From assembly GCA_028681135.1 (NCBI GenBank), contig JAQUJC010000015.1, positions 1 to 51,291 on the forward strand: a DNA stretch of 51,291 nucleotides, given 5' to 3'. A program made the translations under genes and the position numbers. This DNA is from Kiritimatiellia bacterium (GTDB taxonomy: Bacteria; Verrucomicrobiota; Kiritimatiellia; CAIQIC01; Lenti-01). The notes under the pieces were generated by a model. The model ran no database searches, had not been told where the DNA came from, and worked only from the letters and a program-made list of their open reading frames with translations. Positions 319 to 11,935 of this stretch are shown in pieces. Position 1 is the first letter of the stretch, and each line of letters begins with the position of its first letter.

Positions 319-816
319 TTACGATTTTTCCACGCTATGGAAATTCGCCAACCCATCCAGCAGATCCCGAATCACCCGTTTCACGGCCATATGGATGCCC
401 GGTGCTTTGCTGCGGCGCGACCCCGCCACATTCAGCACCCCGTTATCCGGGCAATGCCGCTTAAGCCAGCGGCGCAATTTCGCCACGACCACATCGTGCG
501 GCTGGTTCAGATCCGCCTTCAAACAGGGCTTGCGGTGCTGGCGGGCAAAATCAATGGTGAGCAACGATCCGCCCTCGGGTTTGCCATAGGTAAAAATCAC
601 GGTGCAATCGGAATCGATGACGTTGCGTTCGGTACGCGGCGGATAATGTCGCGACCAATGCTGGCGCATGCGATACTTGGCTGGCACCTTGCCTTTTTCG
701 GAGCGGCGGCCTTTGGGCACCCAGCCTCCATAGGGAAAGGAGCGTTGCACGCAGGCCGCCAAAGCCCCCTGGTCCGCCCCCGTCTGTCCGCCCGACACAA
801 TTTTGCGCAGTTTCAT
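319..816 (-). CDS. putative molybdenum carrier / Rossmann-fold nucleotide-binding protein
   Basis: MKLRKIVSGGQTGADQGAL..., GG-TGADQGAL motif typical of the putative molybdenum carrier family; the C-terminus is encoded by a dyad repeat. Confidence 0.75.
   Translation of the reverse strand: MKLRKIVSGGQTGADQGALAACVQRSFPYGGWVPKGRRSEKGKVPAKYRMRQHWSRHYPPRTERNVIDSDCTVIFTYGKPEGGSLLTIDFARQHRKPCLKADLNQPHDVVVAKLRRWLKRHCPDNGVLNVAGSRRSKAPGIHMAVKRVIRDLLDGLANFHSVEKS
327..343. repeat. dyad TTTCCA-CGCTA-TGGAAA
   Basis: Plus a partial direct copy CACGCTATGGAAA immediately upstream (about 300-312). Confidence 0.8.
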
Positions 817-952
817 GGGGCCATCGTATCGCCCGAGCGCTCATTTTCCAAGTTGGGATTGCGAGAGTTTGGATTGCGATTGGGGCACCATGTGGGTAGT
901 ATGGACCCTTGCATGGAAAACGGCTGCAACCATCCCGGCAGGAGATAACGAC

Positions 953-3900
953 GTGACGACAGTTCCGATCCGGCTTGCCCCCCGCCTCTGGGCTCGTCTG
1001 TGCCTCGGCGCGGTGCTCGTGTCGATTCTGATTCTGGGGGCCCTCGTTGTCCGCTGGGCCATCCGCCGCCAAGACCACGTCTTGCGCACCTACCTCCGCT
1101 ATGACGCCTACGTTGTCGCCAACGCCATTCCTCAGGATCGTCTGGCCGTCCTAGACCGCTTCCATGACCGCGCCCCCCCCCCGCCCGAGACCACGCGGCT
1201 ACACACCCAACTCCGGCGCCTCCTCCAGATCGATCCCGCCTGGAAACGGATCGTCCTGATGGGCCGCGACCCCGACGGCGCGCTTTACATCCAGGTGAGT
1301 TCCCAGGAGGACGGCGAGGAGCTGCGGCTGCCGCTACCGCCAGAACCATCTGCCCAGCCCCCCCCCCAACTGCAGCACGTCTTCGACACGCGCAAGACCG
1401 AAATCGCCGGGCCTTATCGGGATGCCCACGGCACTTGGATGAGCGTATTGACGCCGGTGATCGATGCCGCCACCGGTCGCCTGGTCTCGGTGGCGAGCCT
1501 TGATATTGCGGCCGAGGACTGGCACGCCACGACCTGGCGGGCCGGGCTCATCCCGGGGCTGCTCACCCTGAGTCTCCTGGGACTGGCGCTGCTCGGCACG
1601 GCGCTCCACCACTGTAGCGCGCGCACCGCGGAACACCCCCACCCATACTGGCGCCACCTGGAAGCCAGCCTGGTCCTGGCGCTGGGCACCTTGCTGACCC
1701 TGGGGGGCATGTGGCTGGCTCACATTCAAGAGACTCATCAACAACGGGACACGTTTCTGGCGATGGCCCATATCAATACCCATCAGGTTAGAAACGCTTT
1801 TCACAATCTGCGAAGAATGGAACTCGAGAGTTTGGGCCGCTTTTTTGAAAACAGCGAGGAAGTAACTGCCGACGAATTCCAGGCCTATGTCGATTTTCTC
1901 CATCGGGTTTCCATCGGCCAGGCCTGGGGCTGGATTCCCAGGGTGCCCGCCCCGGCACGCGACACATTTGTCACGCAGGCCCGCCGTGACGTCGACCCCG
2001 ACTTTGAGCTGTGGGAATTCGATGCGGAGGGCGGTCCGACCACGGCACAAGATCGTCCGTTGCATTATCCGCTCCTATTTTGGAAGCCGTGGGATACCCA
2101 CAGCGTAGGCGACCTCCGCCCTGGCTTCGATCTGGCCTCGCTAGAGTCCGTTGCCCGGTCGATTGCTGCCGCTGCCGAGAACCATCTTCCCTTTGCCAGC
2201 CCCCCACAGACGATAGGCGCGGCCACCGCCGCCCCCCCCTTGATGTTCTTCTTCCACCCGGTCTATCGCTCGTTGGCGTCGCAGCAACCGCAGGGCTTCG
2301 TGATGTCAGCACTCCCTCCACATGTCTTTCTTCAGACCGTGCTCAATACCTATTTCGATCAGACCCCCTTGCTTCGCTTGGACCTGCTGGAGATGCGGGA
2401 GCGTGCTGCGTCCATCCCCTTGGCGACCACAACCACGGCCACTCTGCTGCCTCCGGATGCCCCGCCTTTGCAGACTTTGCCCCTGCGCTGGACCCTGCCC
2501 ATTCTGGCCTTTGGCCGCACCTATGCTGTCGAGGCTTCCCCCACCCGCGAGTTCTTTCTCCAGCACCCCATCTATCTGACCTGGATCGCGGGCGTGGGCG
2601 GGGGGGGCATCACGCTCGTATTGACCTTGCTAACCAGTGTCCTTATCCATCGCCGCAAGGACCTGGAACACCTGGTCAAGCAGCGCACCCACGCCCTGGC
2701 TTCCAGCGCTCAGCACTTCAGGCAACTCGCGCGTTTCAGCCGCACCCTCACCTGGGACGTGAACGCCGAGGGCCTCTTTATGGCTATCAGCGATGTCGTC
2801 CACGAGGTCTGGGGCTATACCCCGGACGAATTGATTGGCCAACGCTATATCTATGATCTGCACCCCGAGCACGGGCGCGAGACCTACGTCCAAAAGATGA
2901 TGGCCGAATTTCACGCCCGACGTCCCTTCCGCAACCGGACCACCCCCATCCTATCAAAAAGCGGTCAGACGGTATGGATGATCACGAACGGAATCCCCGT
3001 CTTGGACGATCAGGGCAATCTGACCGGTTACCAGGGATTTGCAACGGACATCACCGCGGCCCATGATGCCCAGCAGGCATTACGCAAAAGCGAACGCCAA
3101 TTGCGCATGTTGGCGGAAAACATGCAGGATGTCGCCTGGGCCATCGATGCCCAGTCCCACCAATTTATCTATGTCAGCCCCTCCATCGAACAGCTTTTGG
3201 GCTGCTCCCCCGCCACCGCGATGGCCCAATCGCTCAAACAGCTCTTTTCCTCTGCTCACTACAGCACCTTTTCACACCTGATCAAAACCTATACATCCGA
3301 CTTCCGCTCCGGGCAGTTAAGTAACAAGCAGTTTTTCACCCACCAGTTCGATCTCCTCCGTGCCGACGGGACGGTGGTGCCCACCGAGACCATCTCGCGC
3401 TTCGTGTGGAATGACGAGACCGGACAGGTGGAAGTCCATGGCATCACCCGGGACATCACGGAACGCAAGCATGCGGAAGACACCCTCCGTGAAAGCCGGC
3501 GTCATCATGCCACACTGCTAACCAATCTGCCAGGCATGGCCTATCGCTGTGCCAACGACCCGGCCTGGACCATGGAATTTGTCAGCGACGGCTGCCGCGA
3601 GCTGACCGGCTACGCCCCCGAGGACCTCATCAACAACCGGACCCTTACCTTCAATGACCTGATTGCGCCCCCCTATCACCACCGACTGTGGGAGCAATGG
3701 CAGGACCAGTTGGCTCGTCATCTGCCATTTGAAGATGAATATGAGATCACGACCCGCTCGGGCAAAACCAAGTGGGTCTGGGAAAAGGGCACGGGCGTTT
3801 ATGACGAGGCGGGCCGCGTCCTGGCCCTGGAAGGCTTCATCATCGACGTCACCGCGCGCAAGCACGCCAACCTGGAACGCGACCGCCTCATGGCGGCCAT

Positions 3901-5413
3901 CGAGCAATCCGACGATGCCGTTGTCATCACCAATGCCCAGGGAACCATCGTCTATGTCAACCCGGCCTTCTGCGCCGTAACCGGCTATTCCCGCCAGGAA
4001 GCCCTGGGTCAGAATCCGCGCATTCTCCAGAGCGGTGTCCAGGACCGCGCATTCTACAAGGCGATGTGGCAAACGCTCATCGCGGGCCGCACCTGGCGGG
4101 GTCAACTCACCAATAAACGCAAAGATGGCACTTTATTCACCGAAGTGGCGTCCATCTCCCCCGTGCGGGATGCCAACGGCGAGATTGTCCAATTTGTGGC
4201 CGTCAAGCGCGACATCAGCCAGCAACTGCGCGACCAGCAGGAGCGCGACACCCTGCACGCACAGCTACTCCAGGCCCAGAAAATGGAATCCATCGGCCGC
4301 CTGGCCGGCGGCATCGCCCACGACTTCAACAACATGCTCCAGGCCATCCTGGGCTATGTCGAATTATGCCTGGAACAGACGCCCCCCGACCAACCGCTTC
4401 ATGCCGATCTGATGGAAATCCAGAAGGCCGCCCAGCGCTCCAAGGCCCTCACCCATCAGCTCCAGGCCTTTGCCCGCAAGCAGCCCATTCGCTCAAAGAA
4501 CCTCGATCTGAACGCGGCCATCGCCAACATGGAGGGTATGGTCAGTTTCATCCTGGGTAAACAAATTCAACTCGAGACGAAACCGGCAGCCGACCTGGGT
4601 CGGATCCAGGTTGATCCCGGCCATCTGGACCAGTTACTCACCAATCTGTGCATCAATGCCCGCGATGCCATTGCCGACCGCGGCACCATTACCATCGAAA
4701 CCCGCAATGTCCATGTGGCCCATCCCATCCGCAACCTGCATGGGGATATCCCGGCCGGGGATTATGTCCGCCTCTCCGTCACCGATACCGGCAGCGGCAT
4801 GACACCCGAAACCCTTAAGCATATCTTCGAACCCTTTTTTACCACCAAAAAAATGGGCCTGGGCACCGGCTTGGGGCTGGCCACCACCTATGGCCTCCTC
4901 CAGCAAAATTCCGCCATTCCCCGAATCCTCAGCCAGCCCGGCAACGGTACGGCGTTCCACGTCTTCTTTCCTCGGCAACCCGCCCCCCCTCCCCCGGCAA
5001 CAATCCCCGACCGCGACGATTCAGCCTGCCCGGTGGAGCCGCAGGTCACCGAAACGATCCTCATTGTCGAAGATGAAACCGCGCTGCTTCAGACGACCCG
5101 GCGCATGCTCGAATCGTTGGGCTACACGGTCCGCACCTATTCATCCGCCACCCAAGCCCTGGCATTTGCCCAGGCCAACCCCGACGCCTTTGATCTTCTG
5201 CTGACGGATGTGATGATGCCCGATCTGGCCGGCCCCGAACTGGTTCAGCGCCTGCAAGCGGTGCAGCCCACTCTGCGCTATCTTTATATGTCCGGCTACC
5301 CCGCCAACCTATTTGGAGAAAAGGGCGACCAGAATCCCCACGTCCAGTTCATCAGCAAACCGTTCAACCGGGCCCAACTGGCCCGAAAAATCCGCGCTGT
5401 GCTCGACGGATAG
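953..5413 (+). CDS. CHASE/multi-PAS hybrid sensor histidine kinase with C-terminal receiver domain
   Basis: GTG start at 953 preceded by AGGAG; TM segments, CHASE-like region, several PAS/PAC repeats, HisKA (ESIGRLAGGIAHDFNNML), HATPase (GLGTGLGLATTYGLL), REC (ILIVEDE...LLLTDVMMP). Confidence 0.9.
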   Translation: MTTVPIRLAPRLWARLCLGAVLVSILILGALVVRWAIRRQDHVLRTYLRYDAYVVANAIPQDRLAVLDRFHDRAPPPPETTRLHTQLRRLLQIDPAWKRIVLMGRDPDGALYIQVSSQEDGEELRLPLPPEPSAQPPPQLQHVFDTRKTEIAGPYRDAHGTWMSVLTPVIDAATGRLVSVASLDIAAEDWHATTWRAGLIPGLLTLSLLGLALLGTALHHCSARTAEHPHPYWRHLEASLVLALGTLLTLGGMWLAHIQETHQQRDTFLAMAHINTHQVRNAFHNLRRMELESLGRFFENSEEVTADEFQAYVDFLHRVSIGQAWGWIPRVPAPARDTFVTQARRDVDPDFELWEFDAEGGPTTAQDRPLHYPLLFWKPWDTHSVGDLRPGFDLASLESVARSIAAAAENHLPFASPPQTIGAATAAPPLMFFFHPVYRSLASQQPQGFVMSALPPHVFLQTVLNTYFDQTPLLRLDLLEMRERAASIPLATTTTATLLPPDAPPLQTLPLRWTLPILAFGRTYAVEASPTREFFLQHPIYLTWIAGVGGGGITLVLTLLTSVLIHRRKDLEHLVKQRTHALASSAQHFRQLARFSRTLTWDVNAEGLFMAISDVVHEVWGYTPDELIGQRYIYDLHPEHGRETYVQKMMAEFHARRPFRNRTTPILSKSGQTVWMITNGIPVLDDQGNLTGYQGFATDITAAHDAQQALRKSERQLRMLAENMQDVAWAIDAQSHQFIYVSPSIEQLLGCSPATAMAQSLKQLFSSAHYSTFSHLIKTYTSDFRSGQLSNKQFFTHQFDLLRADGTVVPTETISRFVWNDETGQVEVHGITRDITERKHAEDTLRESRRHHATLLTNLPGMAYRCANDPAWTMEFVSDGCRELTGYAPEDLINNRTLTFNDLIAPPYHHRLWEQWQDQLARHLPFEDEYEITTRSGKTKWVWEKGTGVYDEAGRVLALEGFIIDVTARKHANLERDRLMAAIEQSDDAVVITNAQGTIVYVNPAFCAVTGYSRQEALGQNPRILQSGVQDRAFYKAMWQTLIAGRTWRGQLTNKRKDGTLFTEVASISPVRDANGEIVQFVAVKRDISQQLRDQQERDTLHAQLLQAQKMESIGRLAGGIAHDFNNMLQAILGYVELCLEQTPPDQPLHADLMEIQKAAQRSKALTHQLQAFARKQPIRSKNLDLNAAIANMEGMVSFILGKQIQLETKPAADLGRIQVDPGHLDQLLTNLCINARDAIADRGTITIETRNVHVAHPIRNLHGDIPAGDYVRLSVTDTGSGMTPETLKHIFEPFFTTKKMGLGTGLGLATTYGLLQQNSAIPRILSQPGNGTAFHVFFPRQPAPPPPATIPDRDDSACPVEPQVTETILIVEDETALLQTTRRMLESLGYTVRTYSSATQALAFAQANPDAFDLLLTDVMMPDLAGPELVQRLQAVQPTLRYLYMSGYPANLFGEKGDQNPHVQFISKPFNRAQLARKIRAVLDG

Positions 5414-5641
5414 GCGCGCGGCGCCATTCGCCATCGCGCCCCCCCGCCTCCATTCTGATTACCCCGCTGCAGCTGATCAATAATGCCTCTTTCGTTGTTC
5501 CCTGTTTCCTGATTTCCAGATTCATTATTTTGAAAATTATGTGGGCTGATTTCCCTGCGCGGCACACCTGCGGGCTCTATGCCGTGGAAAACCCCGAACT
5601 CGTCAAACCTACCCTTGTCCGGTTACTCCGTTTCCACCGCC

Positions 5642-5667
5642 GTCTCGGTTATTATAATATGTGAGAC
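5642..5667. repeat. imperfect palindrome GTCTCGGTTATTATAATATGTGAGAC
   Basis: Same as 5721-5746 except 3 mismatches in the right arm. Confidence 0.8.
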
Positions 5668-5719
5668 AGACTGGAAATTGAGTTCACCTATCGACTTGGG
5701 GATCAAGATAATACAGGTC

Positions 5720-5747
5720 AGTCTCGGTTATTATAATAACCGAGACT
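5720..5747. repeat. perfect 28-bp palindrome AGTCTCGGTTATTATAATAACCGAGACT
   Basis: Left half is the exact reverse complement of the right half. Confidence 0.95.
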
Positions 5748-5899
5748 CGGCCTCTTGCATGGGGATGGGAAGACCCGTTGCACCGTCTATTTCGCTGTCA
5801 GTTGCCATCAGGCGGTTGTGGAATGGGTGTCCCGTTTCGGAAGTCAGGCGACGTGCTCGACAGAGAGGCGCGCAGCGCCATTCGCCCCCCCCCGCCCCA

Positions 5900-6688
5900 T
5901 CAATCCATTCGCGCAACGGGTGGATGGCGCACCGCGATGCCGCGGCCCGCCAGATAGGCCTTCACCTGCTGGACGGTGAAGGTTCCAAAATGGAAGACAC
6001 TCGCCGCCAACAGGGTGCTGGCGTGACCTTCCTTGACCGCTTCCACAAAATGCACCAGTTTGCCCGCCCCTCCGCTGGCCACTGTCGGCAACTGGGTGGC
6101 ATCCACAATCCCCCGAATCAAATCCAGGTCATAGCCATGCTTGGCCCCATCGCCCACTTTACTGGTGGGCAATATCTCGCCCACCCCCACCCCCGCCATT
6201 TGTTTGGCAAATTCAATTGCATCCACCCCGGTCGCCGTCCGCCCACCATTGATAAACACCTCACGGCGGGAAGGCAGCCGGTCATTGCGGTCCGCATCAA
6301 TCGCCAGAATGATCGTCTGGCCGCCGAACTGGTTCACCGCCGCAGCCACAAAGTCGCGGTCACGAAAGGCCGCCGTTGAAATACTGACCTTGGTCGCGCC
6401 CGCGGCCAAGGCCGCCTCGACATCCGCCAGCGTCTGGATTCCCCCGCCGACCACCACGGGGATGTGAACGGCCTCCGTCACCTGCTGCAGCACATCAAAT
6501 ACCGTTCGGCGTTTTTCGATGGTGGCAGTAATATCCAGGAATCCCAGAACATCGGCACCTGATTTCTCATACGCCTGGGCACACGCCACGGGGTCGCCCG
6601 CATCGATCAAATCGACGAAATGAATACCCTTCACAACGCGCCCGCCCTGGATATCCAGGCACGGCATAATCTGTATGGTTTTTTTCAT
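5900..6688 (-). CDS. hisF: imidazole glycerol phosphate synthase subunit HisF
   Basis: IMPCLDIQGGRVVKGIHFVDLIDAGDPV..., TIM-barrel HisF signature. Confidence 0.95.
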   Translation of the reverse strand: MKKTIQIMPCLDIQGGRVVKGIHFVDLIDAGDPVACAQAYEKSGADVLGFLDITATIEKRRTVFDVLQQVTEAVHIPVVVGGGIQTLADVEAALAAGATKVSISTAAFRDRDFVAAAVNQFGGQTIILAIDADRNDRLPSRREVFINGGRTATGVDAIEFAKQMAGVGVGEILPTSKVGDGAKHGYDLDLIRGIVDATQLPTVASGGAGKLVHFVEAVKEGHASTLLAASVFHFGTFTVQQVKAYLAGRGIAVRHPPVARMD

Positions 6689-10129: not shown

Positions 10130-11935
10130 TCAGGTTTCCGCTAATTGGTTAGCTACCCGATCCAAAGCCGGGAGGGGGTGAGGCTGCGCGGCGAGCGCGC
10201 CGCGCAGGTGGCGGGCGGCCACGGGAATATGACGGGCAAACGATGCCAGGCCGGGTTGCTGGCTGAGCACGGCATAGGCGCCGAGGGCCTGGCACAAACG
10301 CTGGATGGCGGCTGCCGGGAAGACGGCCGCAATGGCATCGCCCTGGGGATGATGGCGGGCATAGGCCTCCACCAGGCGGCGTTGGAGGGGGGGCGGCAAG
10401 TCGGCATAGGGATCGCACACGAGACTGGCGAGGTCATAGGCAGCGGGGCCGCGGCGCATGCCTTGGTAATCAATCATGACCGGCTGGGCACCGCGAAAGA
10501 GGATATTGCTGGATTGCCAGTCGCGGTGAATCAAGGCAACCGGGGAGGCCGCAAGAATCTGGGCGATGCCCATTAATTCCGCGGCGACCGCGGCCAGGAG
10601 GGACTCGGAGGCACCCAGGCGCGCGCGAAGGACGTGGTCGCAGAAATACCGATGCTCCCAGGCATAGAGCGCGGGGCCAAATCCGGGCATCAGAGGCAAA
10701 CGGGTTTGGCGCGCCGCCGAAAGACCATCCTGGTGCAGGCGCAGCGTCAGCGAAATCAGACGGCGGTACAGGCGCTGGATGGCCGCGGCATTCATCTGCG
10801 GCAAGCGCGATTCCAGCGTGTCGGGCCCGAGATCCTCGAGGATCAGCACATGGTCGCGCGGAGCATCCAGCAGCAGCCGCGGCACCGGCAGCCCCAGGGT
10901 CTCCAAAAACCGTGTATGACGCGCGTATAAACGATTCTCCGGCCGCTCCGGTGACCAACGGATGAGCATGGCGGAAAGTGCGCGGTTATTATAATAACCG
11001 CGCACTTTGAGGGAGGGCAATGGGAGGCGGAAAAAGGCACGGGCGGAGCCGCGCGGGGGCACTACTTCTACGGGAAAAAGATCAGGGGGGGGGTGCGACA
11101 GGCGGGCGCGGGGCTTCTTGGGGCGGGGCGGAGTGGCGCTGGCGGAGGGCGACGCGAGGCGCCGACGCAGGGCCGCGACCAGGTGTTGCTCGCGGGGAGA
11201 CAGGACCGCCGCGGCGGGCAGGCTGAAGGATTCCCCAGCGTGACCAAGACGCGCCGCAGTATCCCGGTGGGCCTGGACATACTGCGCAGGGGTGCCGATG
11301 TCAGCCCAAAACGACCCCGGAACAACAACCCCGGCAATGGAGTGGCGCTTTTTCTGGGCGCGCTGGTAGGCGGCAATGATCGTGTCAAAACCTTCTGGCC
11401 GGATGAAGGGCAAGATCTGTGGATCGAGCACCTGGACTCCGCAGAAGGTCGCCTGCCCGTTGGCGGGATCATGAAAACTGCGGATGACTCCGTTGCGGCA
11501 GCGCACGGTTTTAGGGCCGGCGTCTTCCGTAAGCCAGCAGGCGGCAAGCGGGCGCTGGCGTTCCCAGGCGCGCAGCAGGGGCCGCGGATCAAGATCAGCC
11601 ACCACATCGGCATTCACCAGCCAGAAGGGTTGATCGAGAAACCAGTGCGCGTGGCGCAAGGCGCCGCCGGTGCCGAGAATGACGGGCTCGAAAATCATGG
11701 CCACACGCACATCGGCAAGGGGTCGGCGGGCGAGATGACGGACAATCGGCCCCGGAGCATGATGCAGATTGATCAGGACCTCTTGCACCCCCCAGCTCGC
11801 CACCTGTTCCAAGGTCCGCTCCAGCATGGGCCGATTCCACAGGGGGAGCATCGGCTTAGGCGTTTCCAGGGTCAGGGGCCGCAGCCGCGTGCCAAACCCG
11901 GCGGCAAGAATAAAGGCTTTGCGGGGCGGGCGCAT
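10130..11935 (-). CDS. nucleotidyltransferase (MurU-like) / aminoglycoside-phosphotransferase-fold sugar kinase (AmgK-like) fusion
   Basis: N-terminus KAFILAAGFGTRLRPLTLETPKPMLPLWNRPM; C-terminus VALIHRDWQSSNILFRGAQPVMIDYQGMRRGPAAYDLASLVCDPY. Confidence 0.85.
   Translation of the reverse strand: MRPPRKAFILAAGFGTRLRPLTLETPKPMLPLWNRPMLERTLEQVASWGVQEVLINLHHAPGPIVRHLARRPLADVRVAMIFEPVILGTGGALRHAHWFLDQPFWLVNADVVADLDPRPLLRAWERQRPLAACWLTEDAGPKTVRCRNGVIRSFHDPANGQATFCGVQVLDPQILPFIRPEGFDTIIAAYQRAQKKRHSIAGVVVPGSFWADIGTPAQYVQAHRDTAARLGHAGESFSLPAAAVLSPREQHLVAALRRRLASPSASATPPRPKKPRARLSHPPPDLFPVEVVPPRGSARAFFRLPLPSLKVRGYYNNRALSAMLIRWSPERPENRLYARHTRFLETLGLPVPRLLLDAPRDHVLILEDLGPDTLESRLPQMNAAAIQRLYRRLISLTLRLHQDGLSAARQTRLPLMPGFGPALYAWEHRYFCDHVLRARLGASESLLAAVAAELMGIAQILAASPVALIHRDWQSSNILFRGAQPVMIDYQGMRRGPAAYDLASLVCDPYADLPPPLQRRLVEAYARHHPQGDAIAAVFPAAAIQRLCQALGAYAVLSQQPGLASFARHIPVAARHLRGALAAQPHPLPALDRVANQLAET
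10975..11008. repeat. perfect 34-bp palindrome AAAGTGCGCGGTTATTATAATAACCGCGCACTTT inside a CDS
   Basis: Exact self-complementarity; shares core CGGTTATTATAATAACCG with 5720-5747. Confidence 0.97.

Follow-up and report, generated by a model that had tools for sequence, protein, structure and literature searches.

Palindromes in the window and their copies in the genome

The window, the 51,291-nucleotide stretch of DNA that was analysed, encodes a MurU-AmgK fusion protein whose amgK part carries the longest perfect palindrome detected within the window, while a pair of related palindromes occupies the gap between two convergent genes (Table 1). The position, exact self-complementarity and in-frame reading of the amgK palindrome were correctly described in the first-pass annotation, and its translation, KVRGYYNNRAL, constitutes residues 310-320 of the fusion protein. 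The annotation had also located these residues where the APH N-lobe would have its beta-hairpin, and the AF2 model agrees, placing them in a low-confidence loop which separates two N-lobe strands (loop at 52-65, flanking strands at 46-49 and 67-70 of the modelled N-lobe piece). Given this location, the extra peptide in AmgK is probably tolerated rather than functional. Alignment with homologues shows that the loop is 11 codons shorter in relatives with a palindrome-free amgK (G007, G015, G006 and G009) and intermediate in length in G001 and G011.

Table 1. Features of the window discussed in the text
Feature	Position	Strand	Remarks
Gap with class B pair	5414..5899		Between a convergent histidine kinase gene (803-5413, +) and the gene for a His_biosynth protein (5900-6688, -)
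Imperfect palindrome GTCTCGGTTATTA^TAATATGTGAGAC, left half of class B pair	5642..5667		79 bp centre to centre from its partner
Perfect 28-bp palindrome AGTCTCGGTTATTA^TAATAACCGAGACT, class B, right half of pair	5720..5747		Cognate regulator G000:C46:9354-9896 (L011)
MurU-AmgK fusion ORF (601 aa)	10130..11935	-	Pfam NTP_transferase + APH
Perfect 34-bp palindrome AAAGTGCGCGGTTATTA^TAATAACCGCGCACTTT in amgK part, class A site	10975..11008		Matches palindromes flanking regulator gene G000:C43:18034-18579 (L010)

The 18-bp core CGGTTATTATAATAACCG, which had been reported as common to the two perfect palindromes of Table 1, is indeed found in both (5725-5742 and 10983-11000; 0 expected in the window), and the 3.05-Mb genome of the window (G000) contains 15 copies, against none of the reversed control. 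Three main classes of arms surround the core in this genome, namely A (GTGCGCGG), B (GTCTCGG) and C (AACCGC[CT]), and a fourth class (TATCGGAGTTTA) matches the paralogue L267 of the regulators described below. All G000 copies examined, other than that in amgK, are intergenic. The exact core had no matches in viral contigs, and among 85,488 species, a set from which the window's own genome may have been left out, it occurs in one contig of G001, which belongs to the same genus (JAHDSS010000393.1), and in 12 scattered contigs of other organisms. Two class C palindromes 16 bp apart overlap at L016:967-983, and similar tandem palindromes are present in G013 (L156, L164). Runs of six or more C or G are common near gene ends in the window's genome, both in the window (5435-5450 and 5886-5894) and at many other loci.

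A covariance model built from 12 palindromes was searched against the 17 genomes of the window's family, all of them draft assemblies with G015 and G014 only 66-69% complete, and detected such elements in 12 of them, all in genera g1, g6 and g7, with none in genera g2-g5. The arm sequences are private to each genome, and the palindromes often occur as doublets at near-constant spacing in extragenic space (77-79, 87 and 113 bp, among others), with some sites inside genes. The spacing is 77-78 bp in G015, 78-79 bp for class B of G000 and 87 bp in G002, and overall the values cluster at 66-68, 75-79, 85-91 and 98-100 bp. The best period of approximately 11-11.25, which was picked after the fact, is only suggestive of helical phasing. 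One G014 contig ends at the amgK palindrome and a G002 contig in the same loop (L042, L044), and the palindromes thus probably break short-read assemblies. A separate family of hairpins, whose arms read GGGCTGACCCC, adjoins Y1_Tnp genes of G010 and G002 (L132:1909-1956, L146:1372-1419 and L347:1469-1516) and is also present in G000; in contrast to the palindromes described above, it resembles a true REP/IS200-type element. Diverse Y1_Tnp matches are unusually numerous in G000, G001, G010, G012 and G016 (9-17 per genome), many of them in open frames of approximately 340 aa.

Tandem-ArsR regulators and their cognate palindromes

All-against-all comparison of the genes around the palindromes revealed a protein of approximately 190 aa which is encoded next to them in many genomes. 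It comprises two ArsR-like winged helix-turn-helix (wHTH) domains in one chain (AF2 pLDDT 93), with HTH_5 (Pfam) and NF033788 (NCBIfam) matched in ten out of ten sequences each, while no recognisable catalytic domain and, in the alignment, no conserved cysteine pair were observed. No convincing tandem equivalent was found in the PDB, whose good matches each align to a single half of the protein, and among open-licence papers none dealt with tandem ArsR proteins or with such palindromes in Kiritimatiellae. A profile search of the window's family found the protein in all 12 palindrome-bearing genomes, at two to ten paralogues per genome, and in none of the five palindrome-free ones; another 33 genomes from the order and class also encode it.

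Palindromes scoring 8 or more within 200 bp upstream were found at 71 of the 94 regulator genes, compared to 0.6% of dinucleotide shuffles, and at 24 of 29 regulators outside the window's family; set A2 was seeded with genes adjoining palindromes, which was not the case for the out-of-family set. Only one of the 94 regulators had such a palindrome in its own coding sequence, as did one of 28 Y1 genes upstream. Relative to the regulator genes, the sites lie between -10 and -160, and some of the 23 regulators without a strong upstream palindrome have a downstream one. In G000, palindromes of class A adjoin the regulator L010, those of class B L011 and those of class C L021. The core of the palindrome preceding L010 includes TATAAT at 15 bp after TTGACA, an arrangement that would fit an autorepressor. 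In G002, one regulator gene (L240:1325-2229) is flanked on each side by a complete 87-bp palindrome pair, in a RAYT-like or composite-like arrangement.

Sites away from the regulator genes can also be matched to a regulator of the same genome. All 25 dispersed sites of G000 match one of its regulators at no fewer than 10 of 12 positions. Of 119 dispersed sites in total, 99 come from genomes other than G015, and for 82 of these the best or equal best match is to a regulator of the same genome; for most sites of G015 and G014 a cognate was not detected, and L293 of G012 had been removed by a length filter. A scan of 400 kb of G000, open to all classes and including several contigs already known to carry sites, gave a regulator match for 13 of 14 long palindromes. 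A 400-kb scan of G018, which belongs to a different family, yielded 13 long palindromes, eight of which match an own regulator at 0.92 or better, and the pairs there are likewise 77-78 bp apart.

The recognition helices of the two domains vary with different parts of the arm. Across 62 regulators, the five arm bases nearest the centre are correlated with helix 1 (r=0.32) and the outer seven are not significantly so (r=0.06), while helix 2 correlates with the outer arm (r=0.37) and not significantly with the inner arm (r=0.04), although the Mantel p-values are only partly corrected for phylogeny and relatedness inflates such correlations. Of the 17 regulators in which Pro-Arg precedes the conserved Ala-Ser of helix 1, 16 go with a TAA^TTA centre, as opposed to none of 54 without the pair, and as the class B clade contains both states, this link does not stem from shared descent alone. 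G014_L234 is a partial exception to the rule; G008_L310 (GR, TTAA centre), which was scored under another palindrome, is an exception outside the count; and the class B site G000:C1:24308 has the TAA^TTA centre although its regulator lacks Pro-Arg. In two recent duplicates of G002, L240 and L283, the palindromes at -161 and -74 have been kept, while their sequences are new and recognition helix 2 differs.

Palindrome positions in other species

Palindromes of different sequence occupy the same place in amgK, with the same codon and centre phase, in G016, G013, G012, G010 and G014, and by our own count a distance of 37 nt separates the centre from the end of the conserved TGG codon that follows it in G000, G016, G013, G012 and G010. 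In G000 and G012 the amgK palindrome is an exact member of the species' own palindrome family, in G013 it shares a 20-bp identity with another gene, and those of G010, G014 and G016 were assigned to own-species families by similarity. The cognate regulators of the amgK sites belong to three different clades in different species. Ownership may have passed from one paralogue to another after duplication, or the same position may have been captured repeatedly. The MurU-AmgK tree has too little resolution to separate independent from ancestral insertion at amgK.

While the amgK loop is 11 codons longer than in palindrome-free relatives, no difference in length is apparent in two other genes. Palindromes are found at one position of a flavodoxin-ferredoxin gene in G012, G013 and G010, its length being unchanged relative to G014, and in a radical-SAM gene the G012 palindrome substitutes for a sequence of equal length. 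Insertion is therefore not the general rule for palindrome gain. At orthologous intergenic positions in G007, G015 and G012, the palindromes have been kept while the interior and flanks of the gap have diverged, which suggests that selection acts on the occupancy of the position and speaks against operators of the usual promoter type. The dispersed sites are located preferentially at the 3' ends of genes: 28 of the 62 intergenic sites away from regulators lie between convergent genes (30 tandem, four divergent), compared to six of 55 in the window baseline, with gene contexts taken from a home-made gene caller.

Proposed function, alternatives and known systems

In presence, sequence and position, the palindromes follow a family of DNA-binding proteins whose recognition helices covary with the arms, and the palindromes are thus very probably binding sites for these proteins. 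For the amgK palindrome, there is a strong likelihood that it is the predicted site of a tandem-ArsR homodimer and one of many private sites of a single paralogue; cognate pairing, covariation and context are read from sequence, and physical binding, dimer stoichiometry, autoregulation and an effect on amgK are inferred from them. Each chain of the dimer would read one arm, with wHTH1 contacting approximately 5 bp beside the centre and wHTH2 approximately 7 outer bp, and the two-fold symmetry of the dimer would call for a long perfect palindrome. Each paralogue would own an arm sequence that is placed at its own gene, probably for autoregulation, and often also dispersed, in many cases as pairs with a spacing of 66-100 bp and for the most part at the 3' ends of genes. 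The putative owner of the amgK site is the paralogue at C43:18034-18579, and that of the pair at 5642-5747 the paralogue at C46:9354-9896. As the recognition helices change, the sites of a paralogue would change along with them, so that orthologous positions would come to carry different palindromes in different species. It is possible, if somewhat doubtful, that the protein, when bound in amgK or at the end of a gene, serves as a roadblock, bridge or boundary.

The first-pass annotation had viewed the amgK palindrome as a mobile or dispersed sequence tolerated inside a protein and had likened it to the Rickettsia palindromic elements. Dispersal, the in-frame position and the approximately 11 additional codons relative to relatives were upheld, and four of the six members of the G012 palindrome family, that in amgK included, are located inside genes, as would be expected of a selfish in-frame element. 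The likeness itself found no support, since unrelated palindromes occupy the same amgK position in relatives, the flavodoxin-ferredoxin and radical-SAM genes are unchanged in length, the palindromes persist amid diverged flanks and a covarying DNA-binding protein is linked to them; with the remaining G000 copies examined all being intergenic, a selfish insert is very improbable. Mutational palindromisation by template switching at quasi-palindromes would account for the length-preserving gain within genes, but hardly for the recurrence of one sequence, matched to a regulator, at unrelated loci of a genome, and is the most far-fetched of the explanations considered.

A further alternative is a REPIN/RAYT-like mobile doublet, in which the linked protein disperses pairs of approximately 110 bp and the palindromes form the ends of a non-autonomous element. 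The near-fixed spacing, the homologous interiors in G002, the doublets on both sides of the L240 gene and the REPIN-like assignment of a single class to each paralogue (PMC3116915) are all compatible with this model, which is nevertheless unlikely, given that the linked protein has no recognisable catalytic domain, that interiors diverge while palindromes stay at orthologous positions and that perfect symmetry provides no strand discrimination. Y1/RAYT proteins were rejected as the driver, with none of 30 scanned Y1 loci flanked by this type of palindrome and Y1 genes also present in palindrome-free genera. In some lineages, mobility may be a secondary property. The position between convergent genes, the strong stem potential and the covariation of the arms could also point to an RNA hairpin or bidirectional intrinsic terminator. 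Such a role is highly implausible, as there is no consistent T-tract, sites are located at -10 to -160 of regulator genes and the arms track protein recognition helices in a manner that RNA folding does not require; an Rfam search likewise gave no match at the gathering threshold and only chance-level matches at a relaxed one.

If the palindromes are indeed binding sites of tandem-ArsR proteins, an apparent selfish insert becomes part of an uncharacterised protein-DNA network in a fast-diversifying family, and thereby a natural record of DNA-binding proteins and DNA sites changing together. The network would supply dozens of naturally occurring pairs of paralogue and palindrome, with a modular code in which helix 1 stands for the inner arm, helix 2 for the outer arm and Pro-Arg for the TAA^TTA centre, and the joint change in specificity of a regulator and all its sites could be tested directly using short oligonucleotides and small proteins. 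A further question is why bacteria retain protein-binding sites at gene ends and within coding sequences. A tentative extension, which falls short of an even chance, is that these are class-wide, self-diversifying chromosome marks of the Kiritimatiellae, in which a proliferating tandem-ArsR family would use private long palindromes at fixed gene-end and intragenic positions while sequence and owner change, selection preserving the position and not the sequence.

Elements of this arrangement have counterparts in several known systems. The ArsR/SmtB repressors, which a ligand releases from their palindromic DNA, share the wHTH fold of each half and the palindromic sites at their own promoters, but are single-domain homodimers of approximately 100 aa, whereas here two domains are joined in one chain, the perfect palindromes are longer and many sites are dispersed at gene 3' ends. 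MatP (with matS), Noc and SlmA are site-specific chromosome-organising proteins whose dispersed palindromic sites, some within genes, are conserved in sequence, while in the present case each paralogue and species has a site sequence of its own. The Rickettsia palindromic elements are stem-loops of 105-146 bp with terminal inverted repeats (PMC2229807) and are likewise translated in frame inside conserved proteins, but the palindromes described here are approximately 33 bp long (34 bp in amgK), preserve length in two of the three genes compared and are linked to a DNA-binding protein. The REPIN/RAYT systems have in common a linked protein and dispersed, mostly intergenic palindrome doublets with one class per paralogue (PMC3116915), and differ in that the protein here is a tandem wHTH protein without a nuclease domain, and not an HUH transposase, and in that the palindromes are perfect and their positions are conserved across species with changed sequence.
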